Source: Candidatus Bipolaricaulota bacterium
GTDB lineage: Bacteria > Bipolaricaulota > Bipolaricaulia > M55B111
Direction of reading: 5' to 3'
Length of the DNA: 64,000 nt
Assembly: GCA_021735245.1 (NCBI GenBank)
Contig: JAIPHJ010000005.1
Span: 1 to 64,000 of the forward strand
Made by a program: the position numbers and the translations under genes. Below the pieces are notes generated by a model that was given only the letters and a program-made list of their open reading frames with translations, searched no databases and had not been told where the DNA came from. Shown here in pieces: positions 18,062 through 28,279 of the stretch. Position 1 is the stretch's first letter. Every line of letters starts with the position of its first letter.

Positions 18062-21000
18062 GTGAGGGAAAGAAAGGATTATAGTTCGTATGGTGAAGCT
18101 ATTGAGCCTCCTTATTTGTTAAAAGACCAAAAAGAGTCTTACGAAAAATTTCTAAACGAAGGCCTGGAAGAGGTCTTCGAGGAGATCTCCCCGGTTAAAG
18201 CCAGCAGCCGGACTGATTTTAAACTTGAATTTACATCTCCCAAACTGGGCGAGGTCAGGGGCTCCGTGGAGGACTGTGCTGACAAGGATCTGACGTACGA
18301 TAGACCCTTACGGATTACTGCTCGTTTGTTTGACGGGGACGATAATCCCGTAATGGAGAACGAACTATACGTAGCCGATATCCCTGTTATGACCCCGAAA
18401 GGGACGTTTTTGGTAAACGGGTCGGAAAACGTTTTGGTCAACGAACTGGCCAGGGCCCCCGGGGTCTACATAACGGAAGAAAGGAACAATCAATTTCGCG
18501 CTCATATTCTCCCGGATTACGGGGCATGGTTGGAATTGATTCTGGACGACAATCGTCAGAGGCTCTACGCCAACCTGGATCGCGAGGCTAAAGTGCCGAT
18601 AACCGTATTCCTCAGGGTTCTGGGAATGGACCGCGAGGACATATATTCGGCTTATAGCTTCGACCTGAATCCAGTTACGGAGACGAATCTAAGAAAATAC
18701 GCCGGTTACAAATTAGCCGAGGACGTTACCAGGGATTCTGAGGTCCTGTTTGAAGCGGGCGAAACCCTGCGGGAAAAGGACGTAGAGGTTGTCCTTAACG
18801 AGGCTACGAACGAATCGCTGAGTTTCCTCAACGCTTACATAGGTAACACTCTCGAGAGGGACGATTTCGAGACGAAAGAGGAAGCAGTAAGGTTTATATA
18901 CGGGAAGTTAAGACCCACCGGTCGGGTTTCCACGACCAAGATGGAGAACTACATAAAGGGCCTTTTCTTCGACGAAGAGAACTATCTTCTCTCGGAAGTT
19001 GGCAGGTTTAAGGCAAATAGCAAACTCGGGCTGGACAAGGAAACACTGGCTTTAACCAGCGACGATATTTTGAACTCGCTGGATTTATTGTTGCAGGTCC
19101 CCGGGAACCACGAGTTACTGGACGAAAAGGACCATCTGGCGAACAAGGTCGTTAATTTGCCGGGCCAGGCCGCTCGATCGGCGTTCGAACGAGGATTAAA
19201 CAGGGTAGTAAGGACCACCGAAGACAAGCTTTCAAAGTTCAGCCTGGACGACGAAGATACGTTACGCGATCTTGTTCCGACCAGGCCGATTCAGTCCTCA
19301 GTGAACCAGTTCTTCTATACCGGTCGGTTTTCCCAGTTTCTGGAAGAGACGAACGCTCTGGCAGAACTGACTCACAAGCGCCGGCTAAACGCTCTTGGTG
19401 GGGGATTAAGCCAGAGAAGAGCCAAGCTAGAAGTCCGTGACGTTCACCCCTCTCATTATTCGAGGATCTGTCCGATAGAAACGCCGGAAGGGCAGAACAT
19501 TGGTTTGATTACCTCGCTGGCAAATTACGCCAGAGTTAACGAGTACGGTTTCCTCGAGGCCCCTTATCGTGTAGTAGAGGATGGAAAGGTCACGGGTGAA
19601 ATAGAATATATAATGGCGGGCGAGGAAGAGCAGTATAAGATCGCTCCGTCAACCACGAAGATCGATGAAGACGGTAACCTTGTCGAAGAGAGGGTAGAAA
19701 TAAGGACGGGTAAAGAGAACTTGAGAATGGGACGACCCGAGGAAGTCGATTACGTAGGGGTCTCTCCGAAAGCGATCGTAGGAGCGTCAGCTTCGCTAAT
19801 CCCTTTCCTCGAACACGACGACGCAAACAGAGCTTTGATGGGAGCAAACATGCAGCGCCAGGCCGTTCCCATTGTCAACCCGGAATCGCCCAGAGTGGGA
19901 ACCGGTATGGAGGAGAAAGCTGCTAAGGATTCGGGTATGCTCGTTCTGGCCGACGAACCCGGCGAGGTTACTTATGTTGACGCGGATAAAATAAAAGTCG
20001 AAGACGATAACGGGTCCGAGAAATCGTATAAACTGAAAACCTTTACTCGATCGAACCAGGACACTCTGGTGCACCAGCGACCTCTGGTTTCTCCGGGTGA
20101 CGATGTGGATGCGGAAGACGTACTGGCCGATGGATCTACCAGCGAGCAGGGAGAACTGGCTTTGGGCCGGAATCTCCGCGTCGCGTTCATGCCGTTCGAG
20201 GGATACAACTACGAGGACGCTATCGTAGTCTCGGAGCGGCTAGTAAAAGAGGACTTGCTGGATTCGATTCATATAGAGGAATTTGAGGTAAAAGCCGAGG
20301 AGACCAAGCTCGGACCGGAGGAAATTACGGCTGATATCCCCAACATATCCAAAGAAGATCTGAAAAACCTGGACTCGCGGGGAATTATCAGAGAAGGTAC
20401 GGAGGTAGAAACCGGTGACGTTCTGGTCGGTAAGATTACACCCAAAGGGGAATCGGAACCGAGCCCGGAAGAGAAGATATTTAGATCTATTTTTGGCGAA
20501 CAGGCCAGAAACGTGAAGGATTCTTCTTTAAAGCTTCCCCCGACTGCCGGAAAGGGAAAAGTTATCAGGGTAAAGAAGTTCTCTCGCGAGAGGGGGCACG
20601 AACTCGATACGGGAGTCAACGAACTTGTAAAGGTTTACGTCGCAACGAGAAAGAAGATATCGATCGGAGATAAGCTGGCCGGACGTCACGGCAACAAGGG
20701 TGTCATTGCGAAAATATTACCAGAAGAAGACATGCCCTTTATGCCTGACGGTACGCCGATAGACGTCCTGTTAAATCCTCTGGGAGTTCCTTCCAGAATG
20801 AACCTCGGTCAGGTCTTCGAGACTCACCTGGGCTGGCTCTCTTCCCTAAAAGAAGAACACGCCAGTACGCCTGTATTTGACGGAGCAAAAGAGGACGAGA
20901 TCCTCCAGAAACTCGACGAGGAACAGACCGAACACGGACTGGACGAGGGATCCAACAGCGATGGAAAGGTAGTTCTGAGGGACGGAAGAACTGGAGAGCC

Positions 21001-21394
21001 GTTCGATAAGCCAATTACCGTCGGTTACATGTATCTACTCAAACTGGAGCATATAGCAGACGAAAAGCTCCACGCCAGGTCAACCGGACCGTACGCCCTG
21101 ATAACCCAGCAACCGCTTGGGGGTAAGGCCCAGTTTGGTGGCCAGAGGTTTGGAGAAATGGAAGTCTGGGCACTTGAGGCTTACGGAGCTGCGAGCACCC
21201 TGCAGGAGATGCTTACACTGAAGTCCGACGACATTCAGGGAAGAACCAAGCTCTACAAAGCAATCCTCAAGAACGAGGAAATGCCCAAACCGGGAATTCC
21301 CGAGTCGTTCAAGGTTCTGGTCCGAGAGTTGAGGAGTTTAGGTTTAAGCCCCAAAGCACTGGATGCCGAGGGCAATGAACTCAACCTCTCCTGA
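18062..21394 (+). CDS. rpoB: DNA-directed RNA polymerase subunit beta
   Basis: Rif region FSQFLEETNALAELTHKRRLNALGGGLSQRRAKLEVRDVHPSHYSRICPIETPEGQNIGLI; C-terminal GGQRFGEMEVWALEAYGAASTLQEMLTLKSDDIQGR; GTG start. Confidence 0.99.
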   Translation: MRERKDYSSYGEAIEPPYLLKDQKESYEKFLNEGLEEVFEEISPVKASSRTDFKLEFTSPKLGEVRGSVEDCADKDLTYDRPLRITARLFDGDDNPVMENELYVADIPVMTPKGTFLVNGSENVLVNELARAPGVYITEERNNQFRAHILPDYGAWLELILDDNRQRLYANLDREAKVPITVFLRVLGMDREDIYSAYSFDLNPVTETNLRKYAGYKLAEDVTRDSEVLFEAGETLREKDVEVVLNEATNESLSFLNAYIGNTLERDDFETKEEAVRFIYGKLRPTGRVSTTKMENYIKGLFFDEENYLLSEVGRFKANSKLGLDKETLALTSDDILNSLDLLLQVPGNHELLDEKDHLANKVVNLPGQAARSAFERGLNRVVRTTEDKLSKFSLDDEDTLRDLVPTRPIQSSVNQFFYTGRFSQFLEETNALAELTHKRRLNALGGGLSQRRAKLEVRDVHPSHYSRICPIETPEGQNIGLITSLANYARVNEYGFLEAPYRVVEDGKVTGEIEYIMAGEEEQYKIAPSTTKIDEDGNLVEERVEIRTGKENLRMGRPEEVDYVGVSPKAIVGASASLIPFLEHDDANRALMGANMQRQAVPIVNPESPRVGTGMEEKAAKDSGMLVLADEPGEVTYVDADKIKVEDDNGSEKSYKLKTFTRSNQDTLVHQRPLVSPGDDVDAEDVLADGSTSEQGELALGRNLRVAFMPFEGYNYEDAIVVSERLVKEDLLDSIHIEEFEVKAEETKLGPEEITADIPNISKEDLKNLDSRGIIREGTEVETGDVLVGKITPKGESEPSPEEKIFRSIFGEQARNVKDSSLKLPPTAGKGKVIRVKKFSRERGHELDTGVNELVKVYVATRKKISIGDKLAGRHGNKGVIAKILPEEDMPFMPDGTPIDVLLNPLGVPSRMNLGQVFETHLGWLSSLKEEHASTPVFDGAKEDEILQKLDEEQTEHGLDEGSNSDGKVVLRDGRTGEPFDKPITVGYMYLLKLEHIADEKLHARSTGPYALITQQPLGGKAQFGGQRFGEMEVWALEAYGAASTLQEMLTLKSDDIQGRTKLYKAILKNEEMPKPGIPESFKVLVRELRSLGLSPKALDAEGNELNLS

Positions 21395-21833
21395 GACCGA
21401 AGGAGCTGAAAAAGAAGTTTCCGCCGGAATAATCACGAGCAGGAGGGACCCCGAAGGTTACCGGGACTACCTCCTGCTAAAACACGCAAACGGCGGGCAC
21501 TGGAGTTTTCCCAAGGGTCATGTCGAAGAGGGCGAGGAACCGAAAGAAACGGCACTCAGAGAACTTGGTGAAGAGACGGATTTAGCCGTTCGGGAGTTCG
21601 TTTCAGAGTTTAGCCTGGAAACAAGCTATACCTTCGAGAGGGCGGGACGAAAGGTTTTTAAGACAGTTATCTACTTCCTCGGGGTTGTTTCTCCGGAAAG
21701 TCAGGTAGAACTTTCACAGGAGCACCTGGATTATTCCTGGTTACCTTACGGTGAAGCCCAAAGCAAGCTGACCTACGAAGACGATAAGGATCTCCTGGAT
21801 CGGGCAGAGAATAAACTCGACCAGTTGGAGTAG
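21375..21833 (+). CDS. NUDIX hydrolase (Ap4A hydrolase-like)
   Basis: Nudix box GHVEEGEEPKETALRELGEETDL; start overlaps the end of rpoB (ATG 21375; ORF track 21363). Confidence 0.93.
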   Translation: MNSTSPETEGAEKEVSAGIITSRRDPEGYRDYLLLKHANGGHWSFPKGHVEEGEEPKETALRELGEETDLAVREFVSEFSLETSYTFERAGRKVFKTVIYFLGVVSPESQVELSQEHLDYSWLPYGEAQSKLTYEDDKDLLDRAENKLDQLE

Positions 21834-21838
21834 CTACC

Positions 21839-22714
21839 ATGAGAGAACCTTCCCCCCCCGATATTAACCTCATCCCAAATGGCGCGTTTGGTCAGGAAGA
21901 TTACGGAGCAACTTATCTGATCGAGGGAGAAGAATTTGCTCTGGTCGATCCGGGTACATCGGATTCGGTCCCCCGGCTTCTCGACTGGTTTAAGGAGAAT
22001 TCTCTTTCGCCTTCCCGGCTGAGCAGTATACTCCTGACACATATTCACCTTGATCACGTGGGTGCAACGGGAGGTCTCGTCGACGAACTATCCGATTTGA
22101 AAGTTTACGTCCACGATAGAGGCGCCCCTCACCTCGTCGATCCCTCGGATCTTCTGGCCAGCGTAAAGGACGTTACCGGTACTCGGTTCTCCGAGTACGG
22201 CACCCTGAAGCCGATACCTGAAGACAGGGTAGTTTCCCTCGACGAGAGGTCTACGATAAATCTCGGTTCGAGGGAATTGGTGGCCCTGCCGACCCCCGGT
22301 CATGCCCCTCATCACGTGGCCTACAAGGATTTAGCCACGGGAGCTGTTTTTACGGGGGATAGTGCCGGTTTGTACCTTGGTGAAGAGTTAATTCCTACCA
22401 CTACACCACCTTCTTTTGACCTCGAAAAGAGTCTGGCCAGTCTCAGAAAAATTGCGAAACTTTCCCCATCCGTGCTCCTTTATTCGCACTTCGGTCCCGG
22501 GCCGGAACCAATTAAATTGCTTGACGAGTACGAGTTGATCCTCCGGGAATGGGTGGAGTTGATATCCGACCTTAACCGGAGTTACGAAGAAGAAGAGTTG
22601 GTGAACGAAGTTTTGAACCGCAAGAGGGACTGGCTTGGAAACGGATTTACTGAGGAAGAACTGGCCATGAACGTCAGAGGTGTCCAGCGCTACCTCTCGT
22701 GGAAAGGGAACTGA
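21839..22714 (+). CDS. MBL-fold metallo-hydrolase
   Basis: LTHIHLDHVG, TPGHAPHH, FTGDSAG, YSHFG. Confidence 0.92.
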   Translation: MREPSPPDINLIPNGAFGQEDYGATYLIEGEEFALVDPGTSDSVPRLLDWFKENSLSPSRLSSILLTHIHLDHVGATGGLVDELSDLKVYVHDRGAPHLVDPSDLLASVKDVTGTRFSEYGTLKPIPEDRVVSLDERSTINLGSRELVALPTPGHAPHHVAYKDLATGAVFTGDSAGLYLGEELIPTTTPPSFDLEKSLASLRKIAKLSPSVLLYSHFGPGPEPIKLLDEYELILREWVELISDLNRSYEEEELVNEVLNRKRDWLGNGFTEEELAMNVRGVQRYLSWKGN

Positions 22715-22720
22715 GCCCTC

Positions 22721-24868
22721 GTGAATACTAGTTCCAGAAACTACGCCAGGGTCGCAGTTTTCCGACCGATCGACTCGACTTTCGAATATTCCATTACTTC
22801 CCACCTGAAGGAAGAGGTTACCCCGGGCTCCATATGTCGGTTGCCCTTCAGAGGTGAGATCGTCCGCGGGGTAGTGCTCGAGGTACGGGGAGAACCGGAG
22901 TACGAGGGCAAACAGAAGCAGATTAAAGAATTAATTTCCGGGGATCCGCTACCCGCCCCGCTTATAGAGCTGGCCCGGTGGCTCTCTTATTCGACACTTA
23001 CTCCGATTGGACAGGTGTTGAACCGCTTCGTACCTCGGGACCTATCCGTACGACCAAGAACTAAAGAGAAAGTGGAATTGAATACCTCTTTTGAGGACGT
23101 AAAGAGTTTTGTCGAACGGAACGAAAAGAAGTGCCCAAAGCAGGTCGAATTGCTGGAATTACTGCTCGCCCTGGACGAACCCATTGAGAAGAACGAGTTC
23201 CTGCGTAAGGCGAATAGTTCACGTTCACCCCTCGAAGCTTTAGGGGAAAAAGATATGGTCAAAATAGCCTCTTCACCGGAGATAGAAGGTAAAGGGGTCA
23301 GATCTTCGGGTGTACTTTCCTCCCCCGGGGGACTGGATCGAGAATCACAGGATGTACCGGAGCTGAAACCAGGGGTTTACTCTCAGTACGCGGTTAACGG
23401 AACGGGTGACCGGAGGCTGGCCGCCTATTTGGAACTAATTCGGAACCAGGCGGAAAAAGGCACTGTTCTGGTCCTTGCTCCAAACGTTATAAGGGCCGAA
23501 GAGCTGGCAGAAATTGTCCGAGAAGAGTCCAGCCTTATTGCTCTGTCCTACCATAGCGAACTTACGGTTGGAAAAATATCCTCCAGATGGAACCTCGCCA
23601 TGTCGGACGAGGTCGACGTTTTTGTCGGAGTTCTAAGTGCAGTTTATCTTCCCGTATCTGACTTGAGGATTATTATCGTCGAAGGAGACGGGGAGAGAAA
23701 CTACGAGTTAACTGAACAGGACCCGAAAGGTAATTTGATCGAAACGGCCCGCAAACGAGCCAGGCTCGAAAAGGTGCCACTGATCCTCGGGGGGTCGGGC
23801 CCGTCCGTTCGATCGTATTACGGGATCGCCACCGGGAAGATCGAGTCGATTACCGGTAACTTCCCTGAAGGATTCGAGGGGTCGGTGAATCTGGCCCTCG
23901 AAGGAAAAAATTCCGACGCCAGTGCCCTGAGTCCGGGGCTAAAGCGGGCGCTGGAGTGGAGTTATGATAGGGAAGGACCGGCCTTAATTGTCGGGAGCAA
24001 GAGAGGGACATCCAGCGCAGCGATTTGTGACGAGTGCGGGGAAGTGGTTCGTTGCGCTGAGTGTGAAGTACCGCTAACTTTCACTGGATCGGGTAATTAC
24101 GGAATATGCCCTTACTGTGGCTCGAAGGTCAATTTACTCGTTTGTGACGGTTGTGGTAGCGACGAACTCAAGTTTATCGGATCCGGCCTCGAAAAGGCAG
24201 AGGCTGAAGTACGGTCCCTCCTGCCCGAAGCCGAAGTTTGGAGGTTTGACTTTCAGGAGGAAACGGGGGCGGATTTTTTAAAACTGGCTGGCGAGGTTCT
24301 AAGTGGGGAAGTGGACGTTCTACTCGGGACCTCGATAGTGGAAAGCCTTTACTTTCAGGGTCGAAGTTCTCTTATCGGGCTGCTCGATCTGGATCTCGTG
24401 AATAACAGACCGAGTTACCGGTCCACGGAATTTCTTCTCCAGAGGGTTCTGGCAGGCCTGGACCTGGCGAGAAAAGGGGGAAAGGTATACCTTCAGACCC
24501 GGGGGGACCGTGGAGGAGCGTTCGATTATATTTCGACCCGGAACTGGAAAGAGCTTTACGAGAGCGAGTTGAGGTCCAGACGCCGAATGGGTTATCCTCC
24601 TTTCAGGAGATTGATCAAGGTAGAGGTCGAGAGAGAGGAAGAGAAAGAAGCCAGGGACGTGGCCTTAAAACTTAAAGAGGAGCTGGGCTCCACTAAGGGT
24701 GATTACCGGTTACTGGGCCCAACCAGTAATCCTTTCGAAAAAAGAAAAGGCCGATACCGTTCCGACCTGATTGTGAAAGCAGAGGAGGCGGAGGGCTTGC
24801 CGGAGCTGGTTCGTTCCATCGTCTCTGAGAAGGGGTACGAAGGGGTCAGATTAAATCCGTTCGCTTAG
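22721..24868 (+). CDS. priA: Primosomal protein PriA, helicase motifs degenerate
   Basis: CDECGEVVRCAECEVPLTFTGSGNYGICPYCGSKVNLLVCDGCGSDEL Zn domain; N-terminal IGQVLNRFVPRDLSVRP; C-terminal RRRMGYPPFRRLIKVEVE; Walker A/B not recognisable. Confidence 0.88.
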   Translation: MNTSSRNYARVAVFRPIDSTFEYSITSHLKEEVTPGSICRLPFRGEIVRGVVLEVRGEPEYEGKQKQIKELISGDPLPAPLIELARWLSYSTLTPIGQVLNRFVPRDLSVRPRTKEKVELNTSFEDVKSFVERNEKKCPKQVELLELLLALDEPIEKNEFLRKANSSRSPLEALGEKDMVKIASSPEIEGKGVRSSGVLSSPGGLDRESQDVPELKPGVYSQYAVNGTGDRRLAAYLELIRNQAEKGTVLVLAPNVIRAEELAEIVREESSLIALSYHSELTVGKISSRWNLAMSDEVDVFVGVLSAVYLPVSDLRIIIVEGDGERNYELTEQDPKGNLIETARKRARLEKVPLILGGSGPSVRSYYGIATGKIESITGNFPEGFEGSVNLALEGKNSDASALSPGLKRALEWSYDREGPALIVGSKRGTSSAAICDECGEVVRCAECEVPLTFTGSGNYGICPYCGSKVNLLVCDGCGSDELKFIGSGLEKAEAEVRSLLPEAEVWRFDFQEETGADFLKLAGEVLSGEVDVLLGTSIVESLYFQGRSSLIGLLDLDLVNNRPSYRSTEFLLQRVLAGLDLARKGGKVYLQTRGDRGGAFDYISTRNWKELYESELRSRRRMGYPPFRRLIKVEVEREEEKEARDVALKLKEELGSTKGDYRLLGPTSNPFEKRKGRYRSDLIVKAEEAEGLPELVRSIVSEKGYEGVRLNPFA

Positions 24869-25028
24869 ACCTTAGTTGCACGGTCGACGATGAATTGATT
24901 AGCATTAACCTGTTTTGCCGTTCCCCACTTAATGTCCTGGGATCTCTGAGAACTTTATGGTCCGGAGCGTAAGAAATACCTCCGGACTACCAAGACCTAG
25001 ACCTGCTCTAATGGAGAGTCAATTGAGT

Positions 25029-27335
25029 ATGTTCAGACGTAAAAAATGGGTTGCGCTTGTAGTTTTATTTGTTCTCTTCTCCACCGTTATCGTTTCTCCC
25101 TTTGGTTATTCCGGGGAACAATATTCTCGTTCCGAAGGAGTGGATCCGTTACTGGGTTACCTGATTGAACGGGACCGGCAGTTAAAACGGAAGGGTAAGG
25201 AAGGAGTCGATCTCAGCGCGTTTTCGGGGTCCCTGGAGGTCTACCGTGGAGAGAGCACTTCAGGTAGATCGGTCGGGGTTGAAGGATCGAAAAGAGGGGA
25301 GGTCCCGAGAAAGACGGTCGGGCTGGACTACCGCCGCGAGGATAAACTGGGAATATTGGTCAAGTTTCGAGAACCCACGTCTTTCGTAAATAAGCCCGGT
25401 TTAACCTTGATTTCGCGAACTGGAACCATTGCCACCGGACTGGGGGATCTGGAGGCGATTTCGGCTCTGGCAGAGAACCCGGAAGTGAAGTACGTAGCTC
25501 CGTCCAAGCCGGTAAGGCCTCTGCTCGACGAGAGCTTACCCCTGGTCGGGGCCGACACTTTACACTCTACGCAGCCGGTAAATAGAGGTGACGGCCTTCT
25601 TATCGGAGTGGTTGATACAGGAATCGATTACGACCATCTCGATTTCAGGGTTGATCGAGAGGAATCAGTGGCCGGGGAAGAGACCTCGAGGATTACGTTT
25701 ATCTGGGACCAGACTGACGGTTTTTCCAGTTCACCTGCCGGTTATGCCTATGGATCCGAATACGACAACAACGACATCGAAGAAGATATAAGAGACGCTG
25801 AGGGTCCGTCTTCGGGTAACGTTCGCGAAAAGGACGTAGTTGGACACGGAACGCACGTGACGGGTATAGCTGCCGGCGATGGTTCTTCGTCGAGCACCGG
25901 ATACGTCGGTATGGCACCCGCCGCGTCCATAGTTGCGGTGAAGACCAACTTTTCCACCAGTTCGATAATCGACGGGGTAAGCTATATTGCCGAGAGGGCT
26001 GATGATCTCGGGAAGGCGGGGGTAGTTACAAGTCTATCCCTGGGTACGCAGTTCGGCCCTCACGACGGTACGTCTCTGTTCGAATCCGCTCTAAACGATT
26101 TAGCCACGAAAGATCACTTGATCGCGGTTTCGGCCGGGAATTCGGGGAATAAGAAAATCCATCACGGCCACGATGTAGCTCGTGGTGAAGAGTTAACCTT
26201 CGAGGTCTCCCTCCCCGGCTACTCTCCCCGAGGGGACGCCGCCGACTATTTCACGCTTGACGGTTTCTACGATCCGCTGGGAAACCTGTCCGTTCAGGTC
26301 CGGGGTCCGAACGGTGACGTTACTGATCCAATAAGCAGCGGCGAGGCGGCCTCTTTCGATCTTGCAGGGGGGTCGGTCCTGATCTCCAACGGCTCGTCCG
26401 ATTTGAACGGAGACAATGAGATATACGTCAGGGTGGGCGATCTGGACGGGAACAGTCCCCCCGATCCCGGCGATTGGGATATCTGGGTGACGGGGATATC
26501 CGGGGCGAGGCTGGATATCTGGGTTGCGGACAATCTGCTTGGCGGTGAAAACCGAAACCTCGAATTTTCCAACGGGGACACGAAGATGACCATCGCCGAG
26601 CCCGGAAACGCGGAAGATCTGGTAACCGTAGGTTCGTTTAACAGCAGAAACAGCTGGGGAAATTATTCGATCGGGGGATTCCCGATAGGAGAACTATCGT
26701 CCTTCAGCAGCACCGGACCAACCAGGGACGGCAGGATCAAGCCCGACCTGGTCGCTCCCGGAGCCTGGGTCGTTTCCACGCTTGCCGAATCCGCGTCCGT
26801 CCAGGACTACCTCAAAGTTCCCGACGGGAAACACTGGGCGCTAGCCGGTACGAGTATGTCAGCTCCCCACGTGGCAGGAGCCGCTGCTCTGATCTGGCGT
26901 GCCTCTTCCGAACTAACGGCGTCGGAGGTTTCCGAATTATTAATTAAAACGACGAATGACTCGGGTTATTTAACTCCCGGCGATAGCTGGGGCTGGGGAA
27001 AGCTGGACGCCAAAGCGGGAGTATACGGTTCCGGGATGCCGGTCGGGGATATTGAGGAGGAGCTTTGGGTCCGGGCGACCCCCAATCCCGCCGGGGATCA
27101 CGTTGATTTCTTCTTTAGCCATCCGGATAATCCCGATGAATTGAAAATTCAGGTCTATAACGTTCTGGGTAAGCTGGTTAAGACTATAGAAGGAGAACAA
27201 TTGACCGGGAAGCTAAAGTACAGGTGGGACTTGAAGGATGACAGAGGAGTTTCTCTGGCGAACGGGCTGTACATCTACCTGATCAGAACCGGTAGTTCCA
27301 GGTCGGATTTAAGTCGTCTCGTGATAAGGAGATGA
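25029..27335 (+). CDS. Secreted S8 (subtilisin-like) peptidase with C-terminal FlgD/T9SS-type sorting-like domain
   Basis: Triad blocks GVVDTGIDYDHLDF, GHGTHVTGIAAG, GTSMSAPHVAGAAAL; C-terminal ATPNPAGDHVDFFFS...YNVLGKLVKTI...WDLKDDRGVSLANGLYIYLIRTG; ORF track start 24957. Confidence 0.93.
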   Translation: MFRRKKWVALVVLFVLFSTVIVSPFGYSGEQYSRSEGVDPLLGYLIERDRQLKRKGKEGVDLSAFSGSLEVYRGESTSGRSVGVEGSKRGEVPRKTVGLDYRREDKLGILVKFREPTSFVNKPGLTLISRTGTIATGLGDLEAISALAENPEVKYVAPSKPVRPLLDESLPLVGADTLHSTQPVNRGDGLLIGVVDTGIDYDHLDFRVDREESVAGEETSRITFIWDQTDGFSSSPAGYAYGSEYDNNDIEEDIRDAEGPSSGNVREKDVVGHGTHVTGIAAGDGSSSSTGYVGMAPAASIVAVKTNFSTSSIIDGVSYIAERADDLGKAGVVTSLSLGTQFGPHDGTSLFESALNDLATKDHLIAVSAGNSGNKKIHHGHDVARGEELTFEVSLPGYSPRGDAADYFTLDGFYDPLGNLSVQVRGPNGDVTDPISSGEAASFDLAGGSVLISNGSSDLNGDNEIYVRVGDLDGNSPPDPGDWDIWVTGISGARLDIWVADNLLGGENRNLEFSNGDTKMTIAEPGNAEDLVTVGSFNSRNSWGNYSIGGFPIGELSSFSSTGPTRDGRIKPDLVAPGAWVVSTLAESASVQDYLKVPDGKHWALAGTSMSAPHVAGAAALIWRASSELTASEVSELLIKTTNDSGYLTPGDSWGWGKLDAKAGVYGSGMPVGDIEEELWVRATPNPAGDHVDFFFSHPDNPDELKIQVYNVLGKLVKTIEGEQLTGKLKYRWDLKDDRGVSLANGLYIYLIRTGSSRSDLSRLVIRR

Positions 27336-28279
27336 ACGGGAGAGGAGGAATGGAGATGAAACCGAAAAATTGGCCGCTACTGGTTACCTTTTTACTGGTA
27401 ATAATCCCACTGATGGCCGGTACCGCCAGCGGTCAGGACGAGTATAGCAATCCCGGTGTGCTGTTGGACCTTGGGCAGGGAGCGAGACCGATGGGAATGG
27501 GGGGAGCCTTTATCGGTCTGGCCGACGACGAAAACGCGGTTTACTATAACCCCGCGGCTCTTGGTTTTCTCGATGAATTAGGGGTTACTACCCTCTGGAG
27601 TCCTCAGTTTGGTTTACTGGATTACGGGGGAGTCGGGTTTGCCCGAAAGTACGTCGGTCTGAGTACTTCCGCTCTTTATTCGGGATCGATAGCCGTGCCG
27701 AACGAGTTCGGCGTCGAAACGGGGACCAGTTTTAGCTACTTGAGTGGGAGCGGCGTTCTCGGGTTTGGTTTTCCGGTACTTTCACAGCTGTCCCTGGGGG
27801 GGAAAGCCAGATATTACTACTCCCATCTTACCCTTGATTCCTCGGACGACGGTTATGGTTGGTCGGTTGATCCGGCAATTATAGCGAAAGTGGGAAACTT
27901 CGGACTTGGGATCGTAGTTGAAAACGCCCTTACCGGGGGTCTCGTTTACGGTTCGAGTCACAGGGAGGAGCTGGAAAAGAAATTGCGAGCCGGTATCTCT
28001 TTCAGTTCCAGGATCTATAGAAGGATGAAATTGAACGTTCTTGCCGATCTGGAAGCCCCGCTCGATTCCGTAGCGGAGGCCAATTACGAACTGATGACGC
28101 CACATCTGGGGATCGAACTATGGCTAGCGAGCGTCGGTGTGAGAGCAGGTTATAGCGGGAGGGCCCTGACGGTGGGGTCCAGTCTGAAGATAACGAATCT
28201 GAGACTTGACTGGGCACTTTCCGCTTACCAGTCGGGTATAACAGAGACTCACAGGGTCTCTTTAATTTACAGGTTTTAA
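27332..28279 (+). CDS. PorV/PorQ-family outer-membrane protein
   Basis: LDLGQGARPMGMGGAFIGLADDENAVYYNPAALGFL; beta-barrel-like remainder ending in aromatic residue (RVSLIYRF). Confidence 0.8.
   Translation: MNGRGGMEMKPKNWPLLVTFLLVIIPLMAGTASGQDEYSNPGVLLDLGQGARPMGMGGAFIGLADDENAVYYNPAALGFLDELGVTTLWSPQFGLLDYGGVGFARKYVGLSTSALYSGSIAVPNEFGVETGTSFSYLSGSGVLGFGFPVLSQLSLGGKARYYYSHLTLDSSDDGYGWSVDPAIIAKVGNFGLGIVVENALTGGLVYGSSHREELEKKLRAGISFSSRIYRRMKLNVLADLEAPLDSVAEANYELMTPHLGIELWLASVGVRAGYSGRALTVGSSLKITNLRLDWALSAYQSGITETHRVSLIYRF

Follow-up and report, generated by a model that had tools for sequence, protein, structure and literature searches.

A probable PriA pseudohelicase with an eroded motor in a clade of Bipolaricaulota

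The locus described here raises the question of what a PriA protein could still do in replication restart once its helicase motor has been dismantled, and whether such a protein stands alone. The window (the whole stretch of 64 000 nucleotides that was analysed) belongs to a Bipolaricaulota metagenome-assembled genome that is about 85% complete (G000 in our comparison), and its closest named contigs are those of Candidatus Bipolaricaulota MAGs, isolates GSL_ and Tobar18m, names from which the group is apparently of hypersaline origin. An earlier note had described the gene product as a PriA with replaced motor motifs and intact zinc and terminal regions, and had taken it for an independent case of a structural-only restart protein. 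The features of the locus are summarized in Table 1.

Table 1. Features of the priA locus, with positions in the window
Feature	Position	Strand	Details
rpoB, syntenic anchor	18062..21394	+	
NUDIX-type gene, between rpoB and priA	21363..21833	+	Family read from sequence
Metallo-beta-lactamase-fold (MBL) gene	21839..22714	+	Family read from HxHxDH motif
priA, putative pseudohelicase gene	22721..24868	+	715 aa, GTG start; Pfam, NCBIfam, phmmer
3' DNA-binding domain (3'BD, PF17764), kept	22748..23035	+	E 1.4e-17 in genome search
Former Walker A / motif I	23396..23428	+	Residues 226-236, NGTGDRRLAAY; lysine position = Arg232
Former Walker B / motif II	23672..23710	+	Residues 318-330, IIVEGDGERNYEL replacing DEEH
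Former motif III	23783..23806	+	Residues 355-362, ILGGSGPS replacing LGSATPS
Cysteine-rich zinc region	24026..24154	+	8/8 Cys kept, C436 to C478
Former motif VI segment	24443..24487	+	Residues 575-589, RVLAGLDLARKGGKV replacing QxxGRAGR
PriA C-terminal domain (CTD, PF18074), kept	24599..24832	+	Residues 627-704, Pfam

All significant NCBIfam matches of the protein are PriA models. The N- and C-terminal PriA regions are retained, as had been claimed, with Pfam scores above the cut-offs for both PriA_3primeBD (PF17764; E 3.1e-16, 59.4 bits, cut-off 22.7) and PriA_C (PF18074; E 2.5e-13, 51.1 bits, cut-off 26.9), and Klebsiella PriA (4nl4) aligns to residues 6-688 in a phmmer search (E 3.8e-37). 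The match to TIGR00595, the helicase PriA equivalog model, scores 218.8 bits, just below its cut-off of 230.35; judged by this score and by the loss of motifs described below, the protein would be a PriA by descent that is not classed as a helicase. The eight-cysteine zinc region, which lies inside the second helicase lobe, is present with every cysteine in place (C436, 439, 445, 448, 463, 466, 475 and 478), again as the earlier note had it. When an AlphaFold model built from 21 sequences (pLDDT 82, pTM 0.83) was compared with the PDB, the nine best matches were all PriA structures, led by 6dgd and 4nl4 (E about 1e-41). The fold is thus predicted to persist as a whole, both helicase lobes included, and r.m.s.d. 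values of 8-12 Å mean that the domain arrangement is imprecisely predicted.

The motor was examined by aligning the protein with 40 intact PriAs gathered from a survey of 60 relatives (35 from the class and five outgroups). In this alignment GxxxSGKT is replaced by AVNGTGDRRLAAY, DEEH of motif II by EGDG, GSATPS of motif III by GGSGPS and the motif VI segment by RVLAGLDLARKGG, so that all of the replacements quoted from the sequence alone are borne out. Anchoring on the invariant Tyr236, four residues downstream, places an arginine at the Walker A lysine position, and the alignment recovers neither this lysine nor the motif II Asp-Glu-Glu. Among the 124 columns that are at least 90% conserved in the 40 intact PriAs, the window protein retains 29 of the 34 that lie outside the helicase lobes and only 38 of the 90 that lie within them (Fisher p 1.5e-5). 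The Lys-Thr pair of Walker A, the motif II Asp-Glu-Glu, the motif V Gly and the motif VI Gly-Arg are among the columns lost; on this alignment every catalytic helicase motif is gone. Outside the lobes, the protein keeps 10/10 columns of the zinc region, 9/9 of the CTD and 5/5 of the winged helix. Only 5/10 are kept in the 3'BD, and some DNA contacts may therefore differ.

The window priA evolves under purifying selection, with a dN/dS of 0.166 against relative G001 and 0.175 against G003; these are simple Nei-Gojobori counts with dS near 1 and hence approximate. The corresponding values are 0.14-0.23 for the adjacent NUDIX and MBL genes and 0.03 for rpoB. Within the window's family (f1), no PriA domain is as constrained as the zinc region. 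The MBL gene immediately precedes priA in f1 (genus g1), f4 and f5, and the order rpoB-NUDIX-MBL-priA is common to f1 and to f4 and f5, families with an intact PriA, which makes the window gene the orthologue and neither a second copy nor an import. A search of G000 for a second, intact PriA with TIGR00595 found none; the model otherwise matched RecG, whose identity is borne out by TIGR00643 (E 3.4e-191), and, weakly, a UvrB-like frame (about 1e-7). The absence of a second PriA is probable, the completeness of about 85% leaving room for one in a gap, and no second PriA was found in the other f1 genomes either. Since no second PriA was found and the gene order is conserved, a paralogous or transferred copy accompanying a normal PriA was rejected, and an assembly or frameshift artefact is ruled out by the intact frame and by the same losses in several independent assemblies.

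Some further features of the neighbourhood were observed. The NUDIX-type gene overlaps the end of rpoB and is followed by no rpoC-sized ORF (window 18062-21833), and rpoB and rpoC apparently lie apart in the window; f1, f2, f4 and f5 all show the rpoB-NUDIX order. Directly downstream of priA lie genes for a subtilase-like protein whose C-terminal tail is of the sorting type (24957-27335) and for an outer-membrane-like protein (27332-28279), an arrangement conserved in G001 and G005.

The erosion extends well beyond the window. PriA motifs are intact in six families of the class (f3, f4, f5, f6, f8 and f9), whose proteins have the same domains as the window PriA and keep GKT, DEE and, generally, GRAGR. 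Motor-degenerate PriAs occur in three families, f1, f2 and f7: 15 of their 16 proteins have arginine in place of the Walker A lysine (5/5 in f1 and 10/11 in f2/f7, the remaining f2/f7 protein having Gln), and 40/40 others have the lysine. In f1, motifs II, III, V and VI are lost in addition to the lysine, and the same erosion is seen in all f1 relatives with readable sequence (G001, G003, G004 and G005), which also turn up among the named Bipolaricaulota contigs. The motif II site is EG[DE]G in 5/5 f1 proteins, within a conserved EG[DE]GxRN[YF] segment followed by QDPKG. In f2 and f7 the P-loop and motif VI are lost and DEEQ is mostly kept. This DEEQ is nearly invariant despite the missing P-loop, a hint that the acidic residues of motif II may serve the structure of the protein independently of ATP hydrolysis. 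A restriction of the erosion to the window's own lineage was accordingly discarded in favour of a clade-wide pattern across f1, f2 and f7, and the description of the window protein as a lone independent case falls with it: the motor loss spans three families and probably goes back to one event marked by the Walker A Lys-to-Arg change.

Whether the motor was lost once or twice was assessed from trees of RpoB and of PriA, the latter without the motif columns. The RpoB tree places f1 as sister to f2+f7 (support 93/86). Together with the Lys-to-Arg change at one Walker A position common to nearly all of the degenerate proteins, this grouping favours a single loss in the common ancestor of f1, f2 and f7, which we consider the probable history; an ancestral Lys-to-Arg change would have been followed by further erosion in f1 and by gene loss in some f2 genera. 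Separate losses in f1 and in f2+f7, which would leave the proposed function of the protein as it is, are the less likely history. They would fit the unconstrained PriA tree, where f1 stands on a long branch apart from f2+f7, and the different nature of the changes, f2/f7 having lost the glycine-rich loop and kept DEE and f1 having kept the loop length and lost DEE; moreover, the AU test does not reject an RpoB topology in which f1 falls outside f2+f7+f4 (p 0.205). Against them, the long branch makes the placement of f1 in the PriA tree unreliable, and joining f1 with f2+f7 in that tree is not rejected either (p 0.317). An RpoB tree with f1 beside f4 is nearly rejected (p 0.070).

We consider it very probable that the window protein, the only PriA detected in this cell, descends vertically from an ordinary PriA helicase and is now a pseudohelicase that helps to reload DnaB at forks without unwinding. 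The core of the earlier reading, that the protein is retained for a structural and DNA-binding role after loss of its motor, is upheld by the motifs, selection, relatives, predicted fold and lack of a detected second PriA; the idea of an isolated case is not. DciA, the DnaB loader of most bacteria, was found in G000, and DnaB in the congeners G001, G003 and G004; no intact DnaB was found in the approximately 85% complete assembly of G000, which is most likely an assembly gap. At an abandoned fork, the protein would contact the arms with its 3'BD, its winged helix and its zinc and C-terminal domains, helped by the DNA-facing surfaces of the dead helicase lobes, and would thereby recruit the DnaB/DciA machinery. 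It could presumably neither hydrolyse ATP nor unwind a double-stranded lagging arm, so that restart would take place at forks with a lagging strand that is single-stranded already, or another helicase, for example the RecG present in G000, would unwind that arm instead. We infer these elements (fork binding, DnaB/DciA recruitment, absent ATPase and a compensating helicase). In E. coli, fork binding swings the PriA zinc region, forming a pore for lagging-strand ssDNA and exposing a partner-docking surface, and the motor-dead K230A variant has been used in DnaB-loading assays (PMC10175261); PriA and DciA have been suggested as possible partners (PMC9825169). The parts of PriA needed for the fork and DnaB role are those kept in the window protein.

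Two other fates for such a gene deserve weighing. A decaying pseudogene, in which the motif losses are neutral and the protein has no function, would agree with the absence of PriA from some f2 genera, where it must be dispensable, and with the much faster evolution of f1 PriA compared with rpoB. Complete copies nevertheless have an intact ORF with a dN/dS of about 0.17, like the neighbouring genes, the zinc cysteines and CTD motifs are kept, and the new segment conserved at the motif II site and its QDPKG extension argue that f1 PriA is not under free drift; we regard decay as very improbable. The chance that ATP is still used, via a reshaped and non-canonical site, is scarcely greater. A glycine-containing loop is found in about the right place and at about the right length in most f1 proteins (NGTG, NGRG or HGTG), and an acidic motif replaces motif II in all of them, but the loop is not conserved within f1, the Walker A Lys and Thr, the motif II acidic triad, the motif V Gly and the motif VI Arg are all replaced, and Lys to Arg alone abolishes the ATPase of E. 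coli PriA (PMC4504706).

Actinobacterial PriA proteins are reported to lack detectable helicase motifs, and the earlier note had offered them as the parallel. The window protein scores at best 140 bits against the actinobacterial-type PRK14873 models and at best 298 bits against PRK05580 models (a comparison of scores only). The nearest parallel with experimental proof is the PriA of Deinococcus radiodurans. That protein carries the same Lys-to-Arg change, which is reported in Deinococcus-Thermus PriA, and has no ATPase or unwinding activity, yet binds forks near-normally and binds DnaB (PMC4504706). The window protein shares its pseudohelicase traits, namely a replaced Walker A lysine, a degenerate motif II and a gene under selection, and like it is retained without PriB or DnaT. 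It differs in having lost motifs III, V and VI as well, in belonging to a class that holds a series from intact to absent PriA, and in being known from sequence and predicted fold, whereas the Deinococcus protein has been characterized biochemically. The phylum is a different one, and gene order and intact sister families indicate that the change would have arisen independently. In the literature searched on PriA pseudohelicases, Deinococcus was the sole case met with, and none of the papers listed in a search on Bipolaricaulota dealt with its PriA. The kind is thus already established experimentally in Deinococcus, and the window protein is a further, more deeply eroded case.

At the far end of the series, six f2 genomes from genera g7, g19 and g30 (G012, G015, G030, G045, G054 and G084; 88-92% complete, 1.7-2.9 Mb) gave no match to the PriA 3'BD or to DciA. 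Five of the six were rechecked with TIGR00595 and with tblastn, using the PriA and DciA of a close relative as queries, and both remained absent; DnaB is present in these five. Across 79 genomes, both proteins are absent in six, PriA only in four and DciA only in six (Fisher p 5e-4, which is only a guide for related genomes). The related genus g13 keeps a motorless PriA. The pattern in g7, g19 and g30 suggests joint loss of a restart/loading module. It is possible, and we propose this tentatively, that restart has been dismantled stepwise in one clade, beginning with the ancestral Lys-to-Arg change: f1 would then have seen all its motor motifs erode, f2 and f7 would have shed the P-loop and motif VI but retained DEE, and PriA and DciA would finally have disappeared together in g7, g19 and g30. 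If so, PriA and DciA would work as one module, and some bacteria would restart replication with neither.

The window protein is therefore one end of a wider clade series and not a lone event, and the series probably has a single origin. Loss of the PriA motor occurs outside Deinococcus-Thermus, apparently through the same substitution that kills the E. coli enzyme, and the predicted fork-binding shell survives under selection after the motor is gone. The six genomes that lack both PriA and DciA are a starting point for learning how DnaB is reloaded, and the purpose of the PriA motor becomes open to test in a single class whose members have an intact PriA, a motorless one or none.
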